From NCBI GenBank assembly GCA_030062745.1, contig CP099844.1, positions 24,552,596 to 24,616,595 of the forward strand: a stretch of DNA of 64,000 nt. Direction: 5' to 3'. This document shows, one piece after another, positions 15,370 through 63,100 of this stretch. A model generated the notes under the pieces. It searched no databases. It saw only the letters and a list, made by a program, of their open reading frames with translations, and was not told the DNA's origin. Made by a program: the position numbers and the translations under genes. Numbering within the stretch: position 1 is the stretch's first letter; each line of letters opens with the position of its first letter. Origin of the DNA: Capitulum mitella. Taxonomy: Eukaryota > Arthropoda > Thecostraca > Pollicipedomorpha > Pollicipedidae.

Positions 15370-15880
15370 GGGCCGGATTGTGGCCAGATGGCCCGCCACG
15401 GACCAGACCTTGGCCATACGGTCCGCCGCAGACCAGACTGGTCAGACAGTCCGCCGCGAGCCAGACTCCGGTCAGACGGCCCGCCGCGGACCGGGCTGTG
15501 GTCAGACGGTCCACCGGACTCTGATCAGACATGCCGAGTGGACCAAACTCTGGTCAGACAGTCTTCCGTGGACCAGACTCAAGTCAGACGGTCCATTGTG
15601 GATCATTCTGCGGTCGGACAGTTCATCAGAGTTTGGTCAGACATTCCGCCGAGGACCAGACTCTGATCAGACGGGCCGCCGCATACCGGACTGTGGTCAG
15701 ACGTTCCACCGGACTTTGGTCAGACACTCCGCCGTGGACCAAACTCTTTCGCCGCGGACCACATTCTGCAGAGTCTGGTCCGCGGCGGACCATCTAGTCC
15801 GTCCGCGCCTGACCATGGTCAGACGTTTTGCCGTGGACCAGGCTCTGGTCGTACAGCTCGTCGCCGGCCAGACTCGCTCC
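15370..15880. repeat. Degenerate minisatellite, about 17 units of 24-30 bp, with internal dyad
   Basis: The approximate consensus is ggaccagactctggtcagac followed by ggtccgccgc. Clear units start for example at ggaccagaccttggccatac, ggaccaaactctggtcagac and ggaccagactctgatcagac. Each unit carries a self-complementary core (gaccaga/tctggtc). One longer perfect foldback, CGCCGCGGACCA at 15750-15761 against TGGTCCGCGGCG at 15776-15787, lies near the right side. The array sustains a 270-codon frame on +, but its product is only a translated repeat. Confidence 0.85.
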
Positions 15881-17134: not shown

Positions 17135-17805
17135 ATGAAGTGCAGCAAGAAGTTCAAGATCGTGGACCGCGTGCTGACGGCCTGGTTCCAGAAGCTGGGC
17201 CACCAGGTCGGCCGGCGGCCGGGCTACTTCGTCCTCGTGCCGCTGTTCCTCACGGCGCTGGCCGCCACCGGCTTCCAGCGCATCCACTACGAGGACGACC
17301 CCGAGTACCTGTTCTCGCCGCTGACCGGCCGCGCCAAGCAGGAGCGCGCCATCGTGCAGACGTACTTCCCCAACAACTTCAGCGCCTTCAACGCGGGCCG
17401 CATGACCGACCTCGGCAAGTTCGTGCGGATCCTGGTGACGGCCGCCGACGGCGGCACGCTGCTGCGGCCGCACGTGTTCGCCGAGATCGTGCAGCTGGAC
17501 GAGCTGGTGACGAACGTGACGGTGGACAGTGGCGAGTCGCGGTGGGCGTACCCCGACCTGTGCGCGCGCTGGAACGGCAAGTGTCTGGACAACTCGATCG
17601 TCAAGCTGCAGCCGTTTCTGGACGACGTGCAGGCGGGCAACATCAGCCTGACGTACCCGGTGTGGTTCAGCGACAGCTACGACGTGTTCGTGTTCCCGGC
17701 GTCGTTCGGCTCGCCCGAGATTTCGGAGCGCGGCGTCGTCGGCAACGTGCCAGCGCTGCAGCTGCTGTACTGGGGCTCCAACCACTCCGACTTCGACATC
17801 AACAT
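17135..17805 (+). CDS. Patched-like gene, coding exon 1 (start codon, TM1, first extracellular loop)
   Basis: Exon 1 encodes residues 1-223 plus two bases (AT) of codon 224. The ATG has a GCCGCCGCC context and is the first in frame after a likely acceptor at 17107. A basic cytoplasmic start with KKFKIVDR is followed by TM1 (GYFVLVPLFLTALAATGF, about 30-47) and the family signature EDDPEYLFSP (53-62). The remainder is the first extracellular loop. It has four N-glycosylation sequons (N81, N127, N169, N216) and two cysteines (C143, C150) in DLCARWNGKC, a stretch conserved in patched-related proteins as I know them. The exon ends at AACAT followed by gtgagt. It is very GC-rich, with third positions almost all G or C, unlike the AT-rich intron around its downstream neighbours. 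A 265-codon reading frame on the opposite strand is a shadow of this composition. Confidence 0.96.
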
Positions 17806-33100: not shown

Positions 33101-36100
33101 GCTGGCCAGGGAACAAGGACCGCGCGGGCTGCTCCTTTTCCTTAGGAAATCGCAGTCCTTGTCGTTAGCTTAGCCGTCAGAGACGTGAACTCATCGCATG
33201 ACGTGGGTTCGAATCTCGACGTCACCAGCTCTCGGTCGGTCACACGCGTGGTGTCGACCGGAGACGCTGTACGACGAAGCCCAAGTGGCTATGCGCCCTA
33301 GCCCAAACCAACCGGCCAGCCCAGTGGCGCGATGACCGGCGGAGCCGTGCGCCGGCGGCGGTGACCTTGCCGTCCTGCAGACTGGGGCACTGGGCCAGCC
33401 GGGCGGGACCCGCCGCCGTGCAGGCCGCCGGCGCGGCGCCACGCAGCGGCGGAAGACGTGCGCCGCGCCGCGCCCGTCGAGTCACCTGCGCCGCTTCCAC
33501 GGCCGGCGACCAGCGCTGGGGTACCCGCGGCTGGAAACATGTTCGGCTCTGTCCCGTACCTCGCACCTGTGTTCGGCCCCTCCAGCGGTACGCAGGCTCC
33601 TCCAGTACCCGCAGCAGCCCGTCGCCCCGAAGGAGCGGAAGGCGCGGAGCCGTCTCGCGGTCCGCGCCCTCGTCTGGCCTTCGTCCGGGCGTCCCGCACT
33701 TTCTCCCGCCGTCTGGCGATTCTCGTTCGTTGCCCGGCTGTCGGCCCGTTCTGTCTGCCGCGCCCGCAGGCGGCTGCCGACCCTGACTCCTGCTGGCTGG
33801 CCCCGGCCTGGCCGGGTGCAGGATGGATGGAAGTGGGAGTTAAGCGTAGTGCGCCACGTTGCAGTTCGTGCGTAACGCCAAGCACATGATTTGCGCAGTC
33901 ATTAATGTAAGGATGTCACTGTGTGCTTCGTCCATTGGCCTTCGCTACGAATCAAGATTGAGGTTCCTTTGAACTGTCGCCGTCCGTGAATTACCGTGAC
34001 TTTGAATGCCCGCGGTGGCCCTAAGGAATACGACGATTCTTTGAAGCCCTTGCCATTTTATTGCTCTTGGCATTCGCATTACTTTGATCACGTAAAGCTT
34101 CGTGGCATTTTCTGCTGTCTTAAAAGCAAGAAGTGCCCTCTTCTGTTTCGAATTTAATGTTCGCGTGGAAATCCTTGGCCTGTTTTCTCGTGCGGTTTCG
34201 CTCCCTTTGCCCCACCCTATCTCCTCATCTGAATCATCAGTCATTTAAGCTGATTCTCGGCCATTTGTTTCGAGGATGATTTGCTGGACGCAACCCATAG
34301 TTGAGTTTTGCTGTTATTAATGTGCTTTATTCGTCTAAACGTAGCCAGGAGCCAGAAGGCTTAAATGACCCATTTTGCTTCCAGTGAACATGATAAGTAA
34401 ACCCCTGCTAATAAGACGGCAAATAAATAGTCTTGTTGAGGCCTTGAGCCGCTGACCCTGCATTTTTGTAATTTTTTATCTTGACGGCCATTTTAACTGT
34501 TTAACCAAAGACGACCAGACAAAACAGATCGTCAGGTTGTTTGCTGTTCAGCTTGAGAGCTTACATTCTAAAACCGGAATCAAGATGTGCATTTTGCCCA
34601 CACTGCATTTTAAATTCCAGATACATCGTCGCGGACCAAGAGTCTTTTGTTAACATCTACTGACGGCTATGGCATTGTTATTTTTTTAGAAACTCGCCAT
34701 TTTCACTCGTACCCTTTTAACTCACATGAGTTTGGTATCGATAGTTTTGTAGACCATTACAGCGTCAGTGGAACAGGGCGTTCAGGGATGCGGGCCTCTT
34801 AAAGATTTCATTCCGGACTTCCCTCAGAGACCGATCCCTTCCACTCCCCAGTGCCCCTCTCCGTAGATTGGACTCCCATATGCGCTTAAGCGCTGTCTCT
34901 GTACAGATTGCTATTCTTTTATAGCCAGAACCGGTGCTTCCCATTCTTCCATAACTGAAACTTTTGACAGCCGTGACTCCTGCAATGTGGTATCTAACTG
35001 CGCGATTTTTTTTTATGAAATCCAACTTCACCGTCCACAAAGTTCTAAACTCCATTGTCCGTCTACAGAATTCCGTGTCAGCTGTGGAGAGTCGCAGTAA
35101 ATTCCGGAATAGCTTTATTGCTCTCGCCTTGGTCACAACACGAGGTCGGGCGCTACAGAGCTGCGTCTCCCACCGAGTCCGGCTGAGCCGCTCGGGGAGG
35201 CAGCCGCCCGGTGCAGCTGTCCGCGCCCGAGCCAGCCTTACGAAGGAGCGCCACATGGTCGGTGTCGCGGCGCCGGGCTCGGTGTCGACAGTTCCGGCCG
35301 ATAGCTGGAATACGGATTCCGAAATCGGTCGGCCCGCGAGCGGCCGCCATAGTCAAGGTCGGGCCCCGGTCGCCAGTCGAGAGCGCTTTGTCGAAGAAGG
35401 AATTCCACCTGCTCGGGTCCAGACCTGAAGCTGTTTCGTGCCGCGCCCTCGCCTCTTTTGCACTTGTCGTTTCTCGCCAGTACTTGTGGTGTTTCTTTTG
35501 CTTTTTTTTAGAAATAAGGCAAAATGTGAAGGAAACGAATTCAAAAGTTATCTCGACCTTCAGATCTCCGTATTCCATTGAAAGCGATGAACGTGTAGAG
35601 TTTGTTCCCTGACGAAGAAGGACTTGGCGATATTACTACAATCGTTCATATGCGGTTTCCGTAAGCAATGTTAATAGATCGTGGCCTTTTCAGAGATTGT
35701 CTTGCGCGTTCAAAGTCAAAATGAGTGTCCATCGTTCACTGCTCATCATCTTGCGTCAGAACGCTGAACGTCAGAAGCCTGCTTTTTCCGGAGACCGTTT
35801 CTCTCCAATTTTGAAGTGGCATTAGTCAGCGAACGATAACATTTTCCTTTCTCATTACCGCACAACTTGTGTCCGGTTGAAGCAAATGATATCATCGAGT
35901 AGTGTACGCCTGTGTAACACCCATTTTCAACCATGTTCGGGCTGACTCCAGTGTCGAGCCTCATGTCGTTTTTTCTTTGTCGGCCTCCGAGCGTCAGTGT
36001 CATCAACCCCGCTCCTTGCTCACATCCACAACTAATTATCGATGATGGCGGGGACGAGGGTATCGGCTCTGGGAGCCAGGGCCATAGGGAGCCCCTGACG

Positions 36101-45100: not shown

Positions 45101-48100
45101 AGGCGCGGACGCCGCCGGAGACGACCTGCCGCTGCTCTGTGGAACCTGCGAATTTCGCACGATTCAGATGAAGGTTTCGCGGGACCACACACCTCATAAC
45201 AGAATGGTGCAGCAGCAAATGCGCACTGGAGAAGCGGCGGCCAAAAGGAGCTGTTCTTCCTCGCTGCCAAGAATTTGTAGATTGGAAGATGTCTTTGCGT
45301 AGCTATGGTAACAATACTCGGGCGGTAAAGAATGAAAAAGTGAACCTCTGCGACAGTACCATAATAACGGCAGGTGCACGCGCTAAGGATAGTGGCGACA
45401 CCGTCAGTGACTAGTGACACTGCCTCCGCACTGTGATTTGCGAGTGAACTTTGAGTCACAGCAGTGCCGCCCGGGACCGCGTCAGCGCGCAGTGACGTTT
45501 CTCTCCGACCGTCACGTGACAAAGAGGGAGCTTTTAGCGGCCGTGACGCCACGGACGGACGGCGCCAGCGTGCGGTGACGGCGCCTGTGACGGTGAGAGG
45601 AGCGGACGGCGGCGTGACGGCCGCCTCCCCGCGCCCTTCCCCGCCTCATCGCCAGCTGTCGCCGTCGGTCGGCCGGCAGATGCCGTGTTGAAACACCGCG
45701 GGCGCCGGGCTTTAGCAACACGTCCGTCTCGTGCGCCGGCGGGAGACAGCAGGCTCTCGGCACGGACGCGGTGACGGGCGGGTGGGTCCGAACGAGAGCC
45801 CTCCGGTCTCAGAAGGGGCTGAGACAATGACTGATGAGTTACGGCCGCCGGCGACGGCTGGTGGATGAGGAGTCGGATATCAGAGCCCGGTGCAATGCAG
45901 ATGTTGTGTTTGGTTTCTGGAAAGAGTATTTACATTTTGTCCTTGAAATATTGGAGAGGCCGCGTCGTAGGGTAAGCGAAGGATAAAGTTGCGATAATGA
46001 TCCTGCAGGATCACCTGGTTCAGTGCCTGGGGGTAATGTTACCAGATGTTTTAAAAAAAAAACTGAGAAGTAGGATCAGGACCCGCGCAGTATGCCCGGT
46101 TTAGCAGCCAATTCATGAACAGCGTGAACCAAAGCCAACGCCATCCAGATCAACACATGGTCTTAAGGTTATCTGAAAACATGAAACTGTCGGAAACAAT
46201 AAATGAAAGGAGACGTGATTACGACGCCAGCGACGAATTCCCGCGAGATCCGCCAACATCGAGTATCGTAAATTTCTACATTCGTTGCATCGTAATGCAT
46301 CATGATATGGATATTTCGAATGGTATCTGGTTTTGTAATGCTAATGGCTGACGTCTGCTGTAACCTTTCCGACATCGTTAATTCTCTGCATTCGCATACA
46401 TTCTGCCTCCACCCTAATCGAATGTGGTTATTTTTCTCCGCAGAGATCCACCTCTGCCCTAAGAATCTCTCCGCAATGAGATACTACATTTTCCCAATTT
46501 CCCACGATCCTCGTTCTCAGCTTGTCGAGCTCTGCTGGCCTGCCAATGAACCCGCCGCCGAACTGACCGTGGTCTCGTCTACCCCCAGGCATCGGCATTG
46601 ACGACACTTTTGTGATGCTGGCGGCGTGGCGTCGCACGCGCATTCAGGACCCGGTGCCCGTGCGACTGGCGCAGACGTACGAGGAGGCTGCCGTCTCCAT
46701 CACCATCACGTCGCTGACGGACATGTTCTCCTTCTGGGTGGGCGCCATCACGCCCTTCCCCAGTGTACAGATCTTCTGCATCTACACCGGTGAGTGTTTC
46801 TCGCACGGTCACTGTGTCGATAGGAGCGGGAGTGAATTGGTTGGGTTTGTGTCTGGCTGGGTTCCTTGCCTGTGTGTGCGCATGTGCGTGTGTGTTTGAG
46901 CACATGAGCAGTTATATGTCAGCGCCTGTGTATCTAGACGTCTGTGTGCTCCTGTATGTTTGAACGTGTACCTGCACCGCCTGTCGGTCTGAGTTATGTC
47001 CAAGTACGGAGAACGCAGGCGCGCCTGTAGTTCTGCGTGCGTCTGAGGCGGTGAGTGATCACGATCCTATTCGGCCAAGTCCGACCCTGGTCTCGATCGT
47101 GACTAATAGCGAAATTCGCGGCGTCGCGAAGGTCCCTGCGATTAGCTCGTGCGTTCGTGCTGGCGTTAATGTTCACGCCGTGTCGTCTCCGGTGCCAGGA
47201 CCATTCGCCAGGTGGCGGGGTGGCGATGTTATCTGGGCACCGGCTGCCCGGGGACCCCAAAGTGGTGCTATTAGTTACGCAGCCTTGACCGAATCCTGGC
47301 CATTTGGGCTAATCATTTTCGATATCTGTAGCTATCTTTTCTCAAGCGATTCACGATATGATTTCAGTTGTAAGCCATTTAACATTCGGACACTTTTTGA
47401 TATTAAATAAACATGACGGCCCTTGTGTATGACATTTCTGTTTCGATGAAAGACATTCCGTCATTAATAATCTTTTGAATGTAATTCTTCTGTCGAAACC
47501 CTTTCAATGATTTTGCTAATAACACTGTTCACTGCTGACAATTTTTGAAGAACTGCCAAACCTTTTTTCTTCCATCAACGATATTTCGTGCTAGTTATGA
47601 TTTTCTGGGCTCTCCAGGACTTTGAACGTTATATTCGTCCAGATTCCCCTCTCCCAACGCTCCGCGCAAAAAGCGGGCAGCAGTGCTTGGAACATAAATC
47701 GGCGACGGCAGAAATGCTCTTGGGACGTTTTAATGCTTGTTATCCTACTGTTATATGATAAAGGTGTCTTTCACAGATCCATCTCGTTTGGTCTCGGATG
47801 GCTAGCCCAACAGCCAGTAGTACCGAATTGTTTGCTGCAGCATTGTGCTTGGCTGAGGAATGCTGCCATGGGTGGAATCTCCGGTACTACTGATGTTGCC
47901 AACGCAGCACATTAATTCCGAAAGTTAGCGTGCAGTCAGTAGGATGCATGGAAAAACCTTTTTTACTTACCAGAGTGGATTGTACTATTTCGAATGACAA
48001 CGGCTTTTATGTTCCAAGTTCTTGCAGTTTTTTCTAAGTTCTTGCGGTCAGTTTTTCCATGCAGTTATACATTTGTCCTCTCAGCCTGCTCTCATGTTAC

Positions 48101-54100: not shown

Positions 54101-57100
54101 TCTTGCGTGGTGTTGCTGGGCTGAGTGGCGCAACGTGACAGTTCAACAGCGCCTGTCGACTGGACCAGACGGTGCCCATTTCTGCCACCGCCGACGTCAG
54201 AACGTCACGGCCCACTGCCTCCGAAGCCTGACTGAGATCTGAAACGTGCATCATCTGCAGTGGACAGGAGTGTCACCCTCCATTGCCAGTCTCCAGCACG
54301 GGAGCTAGACGCAGTTCCGATATTTTCCGAACAGCTTGATGACCATGTCTGGGCAGGCACATTTGTGACGGCGGTTGATGCGGTGGTTATGGCTCACGAC
54401 TTCATGTTTCCTCGTGATCTCCGACGCGATCTGCTCCAGTATTGTCTTCAGCTGTGACGTACTGACCGTTGCTGGTCCTGTCTTACAGGCATGTCGGTGG
54501 TGTTTACCTACCTGTGGCACATCTCCTTCTTCGGCGCCTGCATGGCCTTCTCCGGCTACATGGAGGAGAGCGGGAAGCACAGCATCACCTGTCGGCCTGT
54601 GCTGCCCGTCTCCGAGTCAGGTCAGTCGGCCGCATCAGGTCACGTCAGGTCAGGCCACGCCAAGTTACGTCAGGTCACATCGGGCGAGCGTAATCCCGTT
54701 CGGATGCTCAAAAGGCATCAGACCACGTAAAGCCATGTCCCAACATACCCAGGTACATTTGGTGGATTCATATCATTTCAGGTCAGTTCGGCTCATGTGA
54801 GATCACTTTCAAACGCCTCAGCCTGCTCCTGACTATGTCAGGGTACGCCAGGTTGTGTCGAATCCAGAGCGTGCTACACCGCATTAGGTTAAGCAAATCC
54901 ATCCACAAACACATCAAGCTCCCCCAGATCTTGGGAATATGCATCAGACTGCGGCAGGCCACGCAGGCTCACGCCAATCGTATCTTACAACATCAGATCA
55001 CACAGTATTACACCAGGCCACATCACTCAAGACAAACCATAGCAGGGCACACCGGGCCAGTTCTCATCGGGCGTGGACTGCTCCGCCAGATGGCGTTTAT
55101 TCCGATGGCTTCTGTGGATGTTTTAGCCTGGGGTCGAGCTGTGGTCAAGCTTTTTCTTTAGCACTTCACGGAGCCAATCACAAGCGACAGATAGCCTCGA
55201 TAAACCCGACCAGGGCTATTGTTGGGGAATGCTACGGTATCCATCCAGTGGTTACACAATGTTGTCAGAGGAAGTTATTCTGTGCATTCTACCTGTCCAG
55301 TTCAAGTCTCTCTGAGCTCAGATCAGCATCAGATCATCAGATTCCATCAGTTTGCTTCGTTTTGCACTAGTCGTGAATGTGCAGGAGCTGTGCTCTCTGC
55401 GATCGTTGTGCTGTGAAAGCATGCACGGCCATTGTCCAGTGAATTTACACACAATACGTAACACATTTGCATTATTCGTGCCACCTCATTCACCCAGCTC
55501 CAGACCCTTTGTGAGCATTTCCTGTCGGTTGGGAACCCTGACCCACAGGATCGCTGGTTTTGTTTAAGACTTCAGACCAGTGAAAGAAACGTTCGCCTGC
55601 TTACAGCGGAGATTGCTTGATACAGCCGCGGCTTCAATGGAGGTCTGTTTCAGCTAGTTGACTTTCATAAAAGAGCGTAGGTCAAGGGCTCAGCTGAACC
55701 CCCATCCCATCCCTGCATCACTGACTGTCATGACCCGATGGTTTGTCAAATGGTTTGCTTTTTCATACTATTTTGCGTTCTGGATACACCTCTGTTTATT
55801 CGTATAAAAGTTGTAAGGTAGCATAAAAACACATAGAGGCAACAGATCTTGCGGAGCAGGCAGTTTTTTTTGGGAATGTTGATCAGAGAAATGCTGTTTT
55901 GCATTTGCTCTTTCGCTCTAATCTGTTTCAGTCTGTTTTCGCCAATATCAAAATACATGAACTGAGTTGCTCAGAACAGGAAGCATGAGGCTAGGATCCA
56001 CTGGGGACAATGGACACTACAGTGTCCAAAAAATTCCTTGAACAGTCAGCCAGGAAAGCCTGGTGAGCGACAGACAGGTCGTGTGGCTGGCTCCTTTTCT
56101 AAAACCTTGTTTATAGGTGGGACATTGTTTTACATAATCACGGCTCGCACAATGGAATAATCATTTTGCCTCTGAAGAAACGCGACGCTTTGTATCGGGT
56201 TGGACACTGGTAGTGACCTTGACACCCCTAAACGTCAGGTCATCGCGTGTATCGCTCATTTACGAGCACTTGTCGCCGGCTGAGGGGAACCGGTCATGTT
56301 TTGTGTGGACGGGCCAAGTCGGCGATAGCACGTTCCCCTTCACCCTGACCGGCACGCGAGCATTGCGCAATGAACAGGTCGCGGGTTTTTAAAGCAACAG
56401 TCGATGCTGCCCGGTCACTGGTGTCTGCTGCAGACACGGTCTCTGTACAGCCAACGCCATTTCCCGGACAGTGCCCAGGACACGGCGGCGGAACGTTAAC
56501 GTTGTTCATGCATGCGAGCGGGATGTTTCTGATGTGCACTGCCCTCCATTTTGGGATGGCTTGCGTCGATCGAGAGCATGTGCCGTGCGGCGGTTGCGTG
56601 CTGGCCGCGGTATGCCGGACTCGTGACGGCTGATGGTGAAAAAGTCGATCGTTTTCGCTGACACCATTCGGTCTGATGCAGATGGCATACCTTGGTTTTG
56701 GCGGCTGCTCTCTCTTCGTGACGTGTGAATTCCACGGGTCACGGACATGCGCCGGGTGGACTCGTGATCTGACATCCGACGGTGTAGGGTACCGTGACAG
56801 GCAGCGTTGTTTCTCAGTTCGTTATGGGGCGTCGTGAGCCGCGATTAAACAGTTTTTGATATCCAACACGCATTTTTCCACGCCAAGATGGCGTGGAAAA
56901 ATGCGCGGCGAATACCTACCGGTTCTGACCTGACCGATGAGCGATAACGGATTTTCATGGTCTGAAAAAGATCGTCGTCGCACACGGTTTGTTTGTCCCA
57001 GCGCCGCCTTATTCCTTTCTTCCGGCTGACCATTTCGGATTATTTTCGAGCGAATGTTTACTGAGCACTGTCCGCTGACGTCATCATCCTGTCCTTGCGT

Positions 57101-60100
57101 CCTGTCCTGTCTTGCCATCCCACTTCGCCTTCTCAGATCGGAAATATCGGAGCCTCGTCCACTGTGGAGGACCGGGACGTCTATACAGAGGCATTCGAAC
57201 CTGGTGGCCAGGTCGCTGGAGGCTGGACGGCGGTAGTGGCCCTCATGTCATGTGTGAGTCCGGCAGAAGATTACCTGGCGCCGAGGCGATTCTTGGTCGA
57301 GGGAGTGTCGGGGTCATTGGTTTCCGGGCGTGGGTCTGCACGTCTGTGGCCGAGCGGACGGCACTCGGCCAGGCTGAGATATTCTGCCAGGGCCCGGTCG
57401 CTGGAGGCGCGGGAATTGACGGGATCTGTTCAGAGTGGGATGGTGAAATGCCTTCCGCGAGCATAGGTGGGAAGTGGACGTGGTGCGTGTCATGTGCTTT
57501 TTATATGTAATTAATTATCCTTCTCCATTTTGGCAAGGATATGAGGGTTTAGAGAAATCATGGCTACAAGCCTTATGATATTCCGCCTTAGCTAATGGCC
57601 CATCGAAGTTTACGAGTTTCTTCGATGAGCTGTATGCCATTATCTTTAGCAGCCACTCGCACTACTCGAATATCATGTCGAAATCGGGTCATGGTCTCTC
57701 AGTGAATGAATGCCCGTGGTTGAAAAGTGGATTTACGTTTTGTAGAGAGGTTTCGTGGCCATTTCGTGGTTCGATTAGCCCATGGTTTACAAGGGTCTGG
57801 CGCCATGTCATTGTCCTTTCGTAATGTAATACCGTTGTCCTTTCATGTCCTTTCATCTGTGATGTAGCTGAGATTATTGCAAGCACGATTTTGGTTTGCC
57901 GATGATCAGTGATCACTGTCTCAAAACAATGATCCATAACCAGAAAATTATGGATGGCGACAGACATAAGGGTAGGGCGTTTTAAATGTTGCTGCGGCCG
58001 GCTCCGTACCTGCAGTCAGTCATTTCTCTTCATCCCATCATGGACGTGGTAATCAGACTGGTTTGAGCGTTTAACACATAACCATGCGTGAAGCAGCCCA
58101 AAGCGGAGGCAGCGCAGCGGGCACTTGCAGTGACCCTCCCAACCACGAACTTGGCAATTCCCTCTCAGTTTCCAGCTTGGCAATGGCCCCTCCAGCTTTT
58201 CGTAATTTTAACAGTAATTCTAAGGTGTGGAAACAAATCCCCGAAAAAATAGCTCGGGCTCTGCCAACTCTGAAAACGCTGCTGTGATGACGTATGCTAC
58301 CCTCTGAGGACAGAAATGAAACACATTCCGCTGAACACATTATTCAGCTATCTTCGGACTGGAGCCGGGGAGAACAAAGGTGCACGCGACCCTGTCGAAT
58401 TCTTGCCTACGGGCCGTGAAAACCTCCAAGAAAATTAGAAGAGAGCTAAACGGCCATTATGCCGTTTTGTATCTTTTCCCTAAGAGGCGTTCGATCTGCT
58501 TCACCCCCGGTATCGGCATCTGCAGCTGCCCTCATCAGCTGTCCCGCTGTCCGCCGATGCCCCCCTCCCCCCCGGCGCCGCCCGCGCCAGAAGCCGCCGA
58601 CCCCCTGACCCTGGCCGGCCAGACATCACGTGACCTCAGCGGCCGGCCAATGAATGGGCTCGGCCCGGACCGGCCGGGCTGACCCGGACACCGGCCGGTT
58701 CTTGTTGCTGGGGCGTAAAAACCGGCGCTGCTTCTGCCCCGTCCCTGACCTTTACGGACGCAGCTCGGGGGCCACGGGGTCCGGCCGACCCGGGGTAGCC
58801 TGATTATGTATGGCCGATGGCGCAACGTGCCGATCGCTGGGTGACTCAGGAGACGGCCAAGTGGGCGCATTGTCAGTGTGGGAACCGGTGTTCGTCTGGG
58901 AAAAAGCGTACAAAAGCGCAGGGCTTGTCCGATGTGTCCGTGATACGCGTGTTATTGCTGGAAGCGCGTCGAGACAGCGCTGTAATGACGATTTCTTCAT
59001 CGGGATGTCAACGTACCTTGGGCTCTCGAGGGCAAACATAGTGCTTGCAGTACGGTTTCGTTGCTTAGATGACTAAGTGGTTGGCTCAAACCGTTTGCAG
59101 CGCCACCATGAACGGGGCAGAGGATTGGCCAGAGGTGCAGCCACAGGAGGGGTCCGTAACGAAGAACCGGGACTGTAGGATTCCTGTTCATTGATAGCCA
59201 TGCTTAACATGAACATTGAAAAGTTTTGATATGTAGTCAGACAGCAACCGCTTTGCTTCATCCAAAGGCACCGGTGCAGCCAAAGGGGGTCCGGGGAACC
59301 CGTCTCCCTCCTCTTCAGGCCCGCTTTTTGTGAAAACCATTTCACGTCGTCTTCCTAGCGGGCGGTTTTCGTGTGGTTTCAGTTCATATTGAGCTCCCCC
59401 CTCATGAAAATCCTGGCTGCGCCCGTATCCACAGGTACAGCCTGAAAGCGCATTTGTAAGGTCATTGGATGTCCTGCGGATGGTCCAACACATTGAAAAT
59501 GTGGGGAATCCACTGTTTAAAAGTGTGTTCCGTCTGGCCTCTCAGTTCGAGGTAACCTGGGCTGTTGCCCTCGGGACACCTGCCAGCTTTGCTTGTCGAA
59601 TTCTACTTTACCCTAACAGCAATACACGAAAAGAAACGATTATAAAACCTTCTTCATATCTGGAAACAGACCACCACTGCTGACGCGAACCACCTTCTCA
59701 ATATTTTGCGTCGGTTTAAGTGTCGCAGCGTCATAGTGAAATGTCTAATTCAGGAGGTATCCGTTCTTTGAATCCCTTCGCCACCATTCCACCTTTTTAA
59801 ACTTGCAGGATCGCCGATTTTCTTTTCCCAGTGGAAACAGATTATGGCAGCTAACAGGCACGGAGAGTCGCACATGTTCATCACTGTCTGCTCCGGAATT
59901 GAACGCGAAGCTGTGTCCAGTGCCAATTGACCCACGCGCTGTTACTTCGCAGAGGACCGCTCCGTCTGGTACCGTCTCTGCTGTTCCGGCGGCGTGTCCA
60001 AGACGGACCCGTGGAACAAAAAAGATAACAAGGACCACATGATCATGGTCTTTTTCAAGGATGTGCTGGCTCGGCTTCTCAACATTCCTGCCATAAAAGG

Positions 60101-63100
60101 TATGGTGTTTTTGGTAGCCAGAAAGTATTTTTTTGCATCACAAAGAAGCAAGAAGTTCGAAATAGTTTGTCGGTAGAATGCTAGAGAAGAGCTGTTTGTG
60201 CCCACCATGCTTACAACTTTTATTGATACGACGCAGATGAGCGTTGTTTTATCGTGCAATGTATTCTGGTTGATGGAATCCTGTGAATGAATTGTATCCT
60301 GGGAAGGGTGGTAATAAAAATCGAGCAAAGACGAAATCAGCGGTTTTGGTAACAAAACCGCTTCAACAACAACAAACTACCAACTTACTTCGCAACAAAG
60401 AGGGTTTAAGAAGTTGCCATGTGGAATGTAACGCGCATGCGATGTGGACTGAACAAAGATAATGATTTAGGAATGAAGCGAATTAAACATTTATTTTTTT
60501 GTGAAGCATGCTTGAAACAGGAAAGCCGTACTGGGACGTAGCCATGAGGTCTAGGGGCATCCCTTCCCTCCTTGGGGGGCGATTATCTAGCATTTTTTGC
60601 TCACCAAAACTGAAAATAAATAAGAATATGGATCTCAAAAATCAAGTGGTCAAATCAGGCGGGTTTTCAATATTAAGGGGTTTAGGCTTGTCCTGGTCCC
60701 TTCCTTGGCGGAATCTCCGCTACGCCCCTGAAACGATACACATACGTCAAGATCCGAGTCCCGTGAATTTCCCCAGATTAGATGGAAAAGCTATCTTACT
60801 CACGTGTCCTTTTTAAGACTGTCAAATCACGACAGAAAATTAGTAGCGTGGGCATACCCTGAAGGCATACTTATTCACGATGCGCTTGCGATACACACAC
60901 CGAATAGCGGTCGCCATAACGACGTTGCTCGGACCTTGGGCCGGCGGACCTTGTCGAACGGTCCCGGACGCGTTGCAGCGTTCGTTGCCTTGTCGCGCCC
61001 GACTGTCTGGTCCGGGCGGCGTGTCACCCGTCTCTGACGACGACCCGCAGCGTTCGTTGTCTTGTCGCGCCCGACTGTCTGGTCCGAGCGGCGTGTCACC
61101 CGTCTCTGACGACGACCCGCAGCGTTCGTTGTCTTGTCGCGCCCGACTGTCTGGTCCGAGCGGCGTGTCACCCGTCTCTGACGACCCGCAGCGTTCGTTG
61201 CCTTGTCGCGCCCGACTGGCTGGTCCGGGCGGCGTGTCACCCGTCTCTGACGACGACCCGCAGCGTTCGTTGTCTTGTCGCGCCCGACTGTCTGGTCCGG
61301 GCGGCGTGTCACCCGTCTCTGACGACGACCCGCAGCGTTCGTTGTCTTGTCGCGCCCGACTGTCTGGTCCGGGCGGCGTGTTTTGCCTGTCTGGTGGGCG
61401 GCGTGTCACCCGTCTCTGACGACGACCCGCAGCGTTCGTTGTCTTGTCGCGCCCGACTGTCTGGTCCGGGCGGCGTGTCACCCGTCTCTGACGACGACCC
61501 GCAGCGTTCGTTGTCTTGTCGCGCCCGGCTGTCTGGTCCGAGCGGCGTGTCACCCGTCTCTGACGACGACCCGCAGCGTTCGTTGTCTTGTCGCGCCCGG
61601 CTGTCTGGTCCGAGCGGCGTGTCACCCGTCTCTGACGACGACCCGCAGCGTTCGTTGTCTTGTCGCGCCCGGCTGTCTGGTCCGAGCGGCGTGTCACCCG
61701 TCTCTGACGACGACCCGCAGCGTTCGTTGCCTTGTCGCGCCCGACTGTCTGGTCCGAACGGCGTGTCACCCGTCTCTGACGACGACCCGCAGCGTTCGTC
61801 ATCATGGTGTTCCTGGTGTACCTGGGCGTGGCCGTCTGGGGCTGCACCATGGTCAAGGAGGGGCTGGAGCGACGCCGCCTCTCCAAGGACGACTCCTACT
61901 CCGTCCAGTTCTACGACGTTGAGGACAAATACTTCAGGGAGCACCCATACCGAGTGCAGGTGGGTGTCTGGCCTCCCGCTGAGCCGGGAAGGCCCAGCGA
62001 TCGGCGCGGCGGCGCGACGCCCAAATTTATGCAGTTGTCATGGCAGCGGCGGTGGCGGCGCGAGGGATCTGCAGACGATGCACATTCCGGCGGAACCTCC
62101 CGCCGCCAAACATGGATGGGTTGGGGTGCGATTTACTGCCTCTGTCCTGGCGGCGCTGGTCGTGACTAACGGGGTCCAGAGGAGCTGCGTGCCGTGTGCA
62201 CTGAGCAGACTGGGGCGTATCGGACCAGGATGAACCCGTTACCGACCACTGGGCATTGACCGCCGTCTGGCCAGCGATCTCTGGTCGACCACTGATCGCT
62301 GGCCGCTGACTGATGATCGCCGGCGACTGATCACTGATCACGCATTGCCAGTGACAGGCCGCGGGCCATTGATCACTGGCCACTGACTGACGAGCGCTGG
62401 CTTCTGATCACTGATCACACAGCTTCCATCACTGACGACGGATCACTGATCACTGGTCACCAACTGGTCGTCACTGACCACTGATTATCGGAGGATGAAC
62501 AGCCACTGGCCGCCCAGTGACCACGGGTCGTTGAGTGGTCAGCAAGCGATGACTGACCACTGGTTAGTCCCTCACCGGCCGGCTTCCTCCCTCCAGTGTC
62601 CACTGATGAGAGCCTCGCGGCTGCGAGCTCATTCCCCAATCCTTGCCTGGCGAGAGCTAGCAACACGTAACCCTCAGTCAGCGCCATCGTGAGTCAGCAC
62701 GCAGACAAACGGCGCGCCTTCTTTGTGAACTCCTGGCCGTTTGAGCGACCGGGTGACCTCCCAGCGGCGCCCGGACGGCCGGTCAATGACCATGCGCCGC
62801 TGATACGGCCAGATGGCTGGCGCGCACGCAGCCGGCTGGCTGGATGTTAGCGACGCCTTGCATGCTTGCATCACGCTTGTCGGTCCGTCTGGATGTCGGC
62901 AGACCGGAATTTCAACTAGCGTTCGCAACGCGCATGCGTTATTCAGACCAGGTCGTGCAAGCTGCACAGCAAGCACATTCAGGGTCAAGGATTTCTGAGG
63001 TTCATGGCCGAGACGGTCGTGAGATATTTCTGCCTTGCCATTTGTTTAGGGAGAAATTTAAAATAGCTTCTGCTTCTTGCAGGATGTTGTTTATGTGAGC

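Follow-up and report, generated by a model that had tools for sequence, protein, structure and literature searches.

Minisatellite-like duplications of intron–exon boundaries were described as "mirages" in the amphioxus globin genes BflGb6 and BflGb9, with earlier cases at Adh3 (PMC3087553), and TnC and PGBD5 have been added to the amphioxus mirage genes (PMC3902484). In these papers, mirages appear as boundary-spanning tandem repeats with many units that carry AG/GT splice signals and with high unit identity homogenised within clusters. At BflGb6, the duplicated segment covers the 3′ end of an intron and the beginning of the exon that follows, haplotypes with 6 and 3 units were found and units are 81–100% alike; somatic instability was reported at Adh3 (PMC3087553). 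The results given in that paper suggest that regular splicing is not interfered with, and the repeated AG/GT signals are considered potential cryptic sites. A related process, for which PMC3087553 cites Rogers 1989 and subsequent studies, is intron gain via tandem duplication of AG/GT proto-splice sites.

We found a comparable array in the barnacle Capitulum mitella, within a 64,000-nucleotide stretch of contig CP099844.1 (hereafter the window), at the boundary between intron 5 and exon 6 of a patched-domain gene. We consider it likely that this is a mirage-type minisatellite formed by duplication of the boundary, that the genuine acceptor is picked through exon definition and that the array is tolerated at a small cost at most. 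As in the amphioxus cases, tandem units with AG/GT signals span the boundary, and as in BflGb6 the 3′ end of the intron is repeated together with the start of the exon behind it. The array differs in belonging to an arthropod and not a cephalochordate, in having eleven units against the 6 and 3 of BflGb6 and in including just 7 bp of exon per 72-bp unit; length variation and undisturbed splicing are reported from amphioxus. Tandem splice-site copies as raw material are shared with proto-splice-site intron gain as cited there, but no new intron is seen here, and 61393 is the one fair donor in any of the units. The minisatellite of PMC3039753 was rejected as a precedent, as it concerns a promoter/5′ exon region and not a duplicated acceptor. 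A literature search that included barnacle genomes and acceptor choice, and which covered few subscription papers, gave no boundary-spanning minisatellite that we recognised outside amphioxus among the matches listed. The array is thus likely a mirage outside the cephalochordates and new beyond lancelets, and it would extend boundary-spanning minisatellites, known only from lancelets in the papers found, to the arthropods. NAGNAG tandem acceptors, which are few and closely spaced, likewise offer several acceptors per exon, whereas the barnacle array places twelve near-copies of one acceptor before one exon. Poison exons also lead to stops but have their own donor, which the barnacle decoys lack, and the repeated W exons of the Epstein–Barr virus IR1, where splice signals similarly recur in each tandem unit, are full exons and are used, while the barnacle acceptor copies come without donors.

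The host gene encodes a PTCHD3-like protein, and our spliced model places its first six coding exons, with a product of 552 residues, inside the window. The product contains both the Patched and the sterol-sensing domain that mark the Patched/PTCHD family (Pfam PF02460, 165.4 bits with a cut-off of 23, and PF12349, 127.4 bits with a cut-off of 22.3). A protein search scored 7997 candidates and reported 175 proteins, and relatives were named from the best 120 of the 175. Among those listed, the top match came from the barnacle Amphibalanus amphitrite ("Patched domain-containing protein 3", 78% identity over the whole query), followed by a second Amphibalanus protein (57%) and a protein from Pollicipes, a goose barnacle (61% over 90%). 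The structure of the gene is as follows, with acceptor scores computed from a weight table (PWM).

17135–17805, + strand: exon 1, from the ATG; spliced model, donor gtgagt, alignment to P0001
25868–26205, + strand: exon 2; spliced model, acceptor score 11.6
46589–46789, + strand: exon 3; spliced model, acceptor score 9.6, CTGAC at −23
54489–54620, + strand: exon 4; spliced model, acceptor score 9.8, CTGAC at −24
59953–60099, + strand: exon 5, ending in phase 1 (..AAA G/gtatgg); spliced model, acceptor score 9.0, TTGAC at −23
60100–61792, + strand: intron 5, 1693 bp, of which the array is the final 814 bp; spliced model and repeat coordinates
61793–61959, + strand: exon 6, 167 nt; spliced model, protein alignment, donor gtgggt with score 9.7

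The array and its edges are made up of the following elements.

60975–60978, + strand: GCAG at the left array edge, holding the first upstream AG and the sole unit portion preceding the first full unit; repeat comparison
60979–61792, + strand: eleven tandem units; TRF, GCAGCGTTCGT positions and consensus comparison
60979, 61051, 61123 (69 bp), 61192, 61264, 61336 (97 bp), 61433, 61505, 61577, 61649 and 61721, + strand: unit starts
61336–61432, + strand: the 97-bp unit, with 25 bp inserted; consensus comparison
61791–61792, + strand: AG of the genuine exon 6 acceptor, the twelfth and last; spliced model and Amphibalanus protein match
61793–61799, + strand: CGTTCGT, bases 1–7 of exon 6, present in every unit; repeat comparison

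The 11-bp sequence GCAGCGTTCGT occurs 12 times on the + strand, at 60975, 61047, 61119, 61188, 61260, 61332, 61429, 61501, 61573, 61645, 61717 and 61789; it is confined to 60975–61799, with zero copies elsewhere on that strand of the window. These positions bear out the original prediction, in coordinates as well as description, that about eleven units of some 72 bp are each followed by the cgttcgt that opens exon 6. TRF covered the array with nine overlapping rows (scores 366–1408). The copy number, which comes from one assembly, comprises nine units of 72 bp, one of 69 bp (61123–61191, one GAC short) and one of 97 bp, and all 11 end in CGCAG. The period of 72 spans the exon–intron boundary and overlaps conserved coding sequence by 7 bp; by simple arithmetic, seven exon bases would be shared by chance at a rate of about 4^-7, or 6e-5. 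The units are nearly identical, with 0–3 substitutions from the consensus in each, the last unit having the most (3), and a mean of 2.0 and maximum of 4 pairwise differences among the nine 72-mers. The units fall into 8 distinct types, arranged as ABCDEFEGGGH, with E and G recurring within the array, as with the homogenised clusters of mirages, and the units contain AG/GT splice signals. An array or copy number created in assembly has one parallel in an amphioxus mirage whose assembly in the draft genome was aberrant (PMC3087553). Eight unit types, single units of 69 and 97 bp and a nonperiodic order are, however, unlike what is expected from a graph loop or collapsed copy, and we hold an artefact to be highly improbable.

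The position of the genuine acceptor is indicated by related proteins. Amphibalanus P0001 and P0062 carry ...NIPAIKAFVIMVFLVYLG..., and the junction is identical to that of exon 5 joined to 61793: exon 6 opens with AFVIMV, and the AFVIMVFLVYL at the exon 5/6 junction is the same in both proteins. As the residues match the protein models of a related barnacle, we infer that 61792 is the productive acceptor. The Pollicipes protein model stops three residues beyond the corresponding lysine (...NIPAVKGLT), an end that read-through into the intron here would produce. Since AFVIMV is conserved in Amphibalanus, the opening codons of exon 6 presumably predate the array, and the CGTTCGT of each unit would therefore be a copy of exon sequence. 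The 7-bp overlap and this conservation support the earlier claim that the array grew through tandem duplication of the junction between intron 5 and exon 6. In such a course of events, a segment over the boundary, consisting of about 65 bp of intron end and the 7 bp that open exon 6, would have undergone tandem duplication, and unequal exchange or slippage would have raised it to eleven homogenised copies. We looked in the unit for decayed exon 6 sequence from past base 7 and found none (score 13.0, null mean 15.3).

At its edges, the 72-bp periodicity overruns the whole units by 7 bp on the right (CGTTCGT, in exon 6) and 4 bp on the left (GCAG), and the 11-bp excess is compatible both with truncation of the leftmost unit and with an insertion that duplicated 11 bp. 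According to the latter, a 61-bp filler would have been inserted at the boundary with duplication of GCAGCGTTCGT and then amplified, such that 60978 is the ancestral acceptor and the intron part of the units is foreign; the splicing outcome would be the same as for a tolerated mirage. An excess of exactly 11 bp agrees with this, as does a left-flank acceptor scoring no worse than the genuine one (0.5 vs. 0.0, PWM), but a truncated leftmost unit accounts for the left edge equally well, and yTnAy, a motif that the units contain, is absent from the final 60 bp of the left flank. We give very little credence to the insertion. No decayed unit was found left of the array in 60900–60978 (score 15.0, null mean 15.4).

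The genuine acceptor is preceded by eleven decoys. On the intron side, 9 of the 11 are identical to it over 34 bp, the one at 61192, which comes after the 69-bp unit, over just 12 bp, and the one at 60978/60979 over 4 bp; this corrects the description of about twelve near-identical acceptors in the original prediction. The last unit differs from the 8 decoys of equal length by 2–3 mismatches in 65 bases and has no AG at unit position 37, an internal AG being found in 5 of the 11 units. These differences farther upstream leave room for an intron-side preference for the last acceptor. With the PWM, exons 2–5 have acceptor scores of 9.0–11.6 and exon 6 a score of 0.0, while the decoys score 0.0 (nine cases), 0.5 (60979) and 2.0 (61192). 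Several of the 76 AGs scored in intron 5 and exon 6 exceed the genuine acceptor by the same table, the best being 6.2 (61909) and 4.7 (60777). The exon 6 donor, in turn, scores 9.7 and the other donors of the gene 8.4–10.1, and none of the donor-like sites within the array is comparable to it, the best scoring 6.1 (after 61393, CTG/GTGGGC, in the 97-bp unit) and the next 2.1. An acceptor and this only fair donor-like site of the array enclose a possible 58-nt cryptic exon at 61336–61393, which would shift the frame.

As the genuine acceptor is no stronger than its copies and the last 34 intron bases are shared by most of them, the decision probably lies with exon 6, through its own sequence and the donor 167 nt away. 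The site at 61792 would be chosen as the sole acceptor abutting a real exon 6 with a good donor at that distance, consistent with exon definition, and the upstream copies, equally weak and placed on would-be exons of 239–981 nt that mostly hold an early stop, would be mostly ignored. Predicted RNA folding was no stronger than in shuffled sequences for either the array (z +1.46; 18 of 20 shuffles folded equally well) or the last unit (z −0.26; 74 of 200). Twelve acceptors, with 9 of 11 decoys sharing the final 34 bases of intron and the initial 7 of exon with the genuine site, amount to a natural experiment: they bear on how the spliceosome distinguishes an exon from a duplicate of its border, and clean splicing of exon 6 would mean that information beyond the splice site itself decides.

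The original prediction also proposed a poison or decoy array, in which upstream copies capture the splicing of exon 5, the stop-containing mRNA is degraded and expression is lowered according to copy number. It had every decoy giving AFV, about 16 residues and TGA; we found 19 codons and then TGA for 10 of the 11, whereas the frame from 61336 escapes the TGA owing to the 25 bp inserted in its unit and stays open for 195 codons, entering exon 6 in the wrong frame. Any leak through a decoy, located 239–981 nt from the exon 6 donor as compared with 167 nt for the genuine acceptor, would place a premature stop 180–922 nt ahead of that donor in these 10 cases. The early stops and the close likeness of nine decoys to the genuine acceptor are what a poison role would call for. 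However, an in-frame stop was present in 1467 of 5000 shuffled units (29%), a frequency that gives no excess of stops beyond chance, and the TGA of the decoy frame (e.g., 61777–61779) forms the centre of the branch motif CTGAC. The stops are therefore an ordinary accident and do not point to a poison device, and the proposed role is left with no support of its own. The decoy acceptors are moreover weak by the PWM, and the amphioxus analogues are reported to leave splicing undisturbed. A poison function therefore appears unlikely, and tolerance by means of exon 6 signals fits both the sequence and the amphioxus precedent better. In competition experiments with two equal acceptors, the upstream one is often favoured. 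The first AG downstream of a branch point is strongly preferred, according to PMC7317903. Given such preferences and the cryptic-site potential of repeated AG/GT signals, the same facts would also permit partial use of the decoys.

The branch motif lies unusually close to the AG. The two copies nearest to exon 6 are placed as follows.

61704–61708, + strand: CTGAC of the next-to-last unit, with A at 61707, 13 nt ahead of the decoy AG ending at 61720 and 85 nt ahead of the genuine acceptor
61776–61780, + strand: branch-point-like CTGAC of the last unit, with A at 61779 (−14), holding the TGA that ends the decoy frame

The A of CTGAC is at −14 for the genuine acceptor and 9 of the 11 decoys and at −11 for 61192, and there is no such motif near the first acceptor. 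Ahead of exons 3, 4 and 5, the A of yTGAC is found at −23, −24 and −23, respectively, and the intron ahead of exon 2 has CTTAT at −22 without yTGAy. A CTGAC just 13 nt from the AG, compared with −23/−24 in three sister introns, is the least ordinary feature of the array. According to PMC2991248, predicted human branch points peak at −24 and AGs within 12–15 nt of a branch point can be bypassed, although the bypass zone is perhaps as short as 7–8 nt. The combination of a very weak acceptor and a close branch motif suggests either strong enhancers in exon 6, the use of another branch adenine or a contribution from the branch points of neighbouring copies.

In the last of these, each unit's own AG, 13 nt away, would be bypassed and its branch point would mainly serve the next AG, 85 nt on; this would aid the poor exon 6 acceptor, and the array would be kept for that reason. 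The −14 and −11 positions, contrasting with those before exons 3–5, and the published bypass zone of 12–15 nt accord with such an arrangement, and so does the lack in the last unit of the internal AG seen in five of the eleven. On the other hand, other adenines (e.g., TCAC at −25) may be the true branch site, the bypass zone is perhaps as short as 7–8 nt in the same paper, and a geometry common to nearly all units gives no selection of the last AG; we judge the arrangement decidedly unlikely. A stronger version, in which the array repairs a defective acceptor, the branch point of one copy serving the AG of the next and proper splicing of exon 6 needing at least two copies, seems very unlikely. 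If it were true, the minisatellite would be a required, copy-number-dependent part of the splice site. Tolerance of the array remains the reading we prefer.

Searches for relatives of the unit gave little. BLAST found no convincing further copy within the window, the best match outside the array having an E value of 0.084, and there was no exact 33-bp match to the unit in viral_contigs, from which records of the window's own genome may have been excluded. Rfam gave 0 matches at gathering scores and the tRNA search 0. At the remaining boundaries of the gene, 4 acceptors and 6 donors, 22-mers matched only themselves on the + strand of the window with up to 5 mismatches. Long open reading frames through the repeat on both strands result from a period divisible by 3, and we rejected them as genes. 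The frame-0 translation of the unit (RSLSCRARLSGPGGVSPVSDDDPQ), one of six frames, resembles the exon 4/5 region (RSVWYRLCCSGGVSKTDP, 59953–59998) more closely than 500 of 500 shuffles do. Descent of the unit from exon 5 by decay was nonetheless kept as a lead only: by that test frame 2 matches an unrelated N-terminal stretch (p 0.022), and at the DNA level exon 5 ranks 93 among 2516 segments (p 0.004, single test).

Several other repeats and repeat-like segments are present in the window. Outside the array, the segment that aligns best with the unit is the GC-rich 33651–33800 (score 55; p 0.0015 against Markov shuffles, uncorrected for the 2516 segments). A degenerate 30-bp minisatellite at 15379–15850 has a core (GTCTGGTCCGCGGCGGA, on one strand) that resembles GTCTGGTCCGGGCGGCG of the 72-bp unit, and the alignment of 15601–15750 (minus strand) to that unit beats all 2000 Markov shuffles. 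Intron 6 holds a second, degenerate tandem repeat of 77 bp (CACTGATCACTGGCC-like) at 62287–62460, about 330 bp past exon 6, with similar words to about 62560. At the start of the window, 18–279 is a 98-bp tandem repeat of 2.7 copies with 95% matches.
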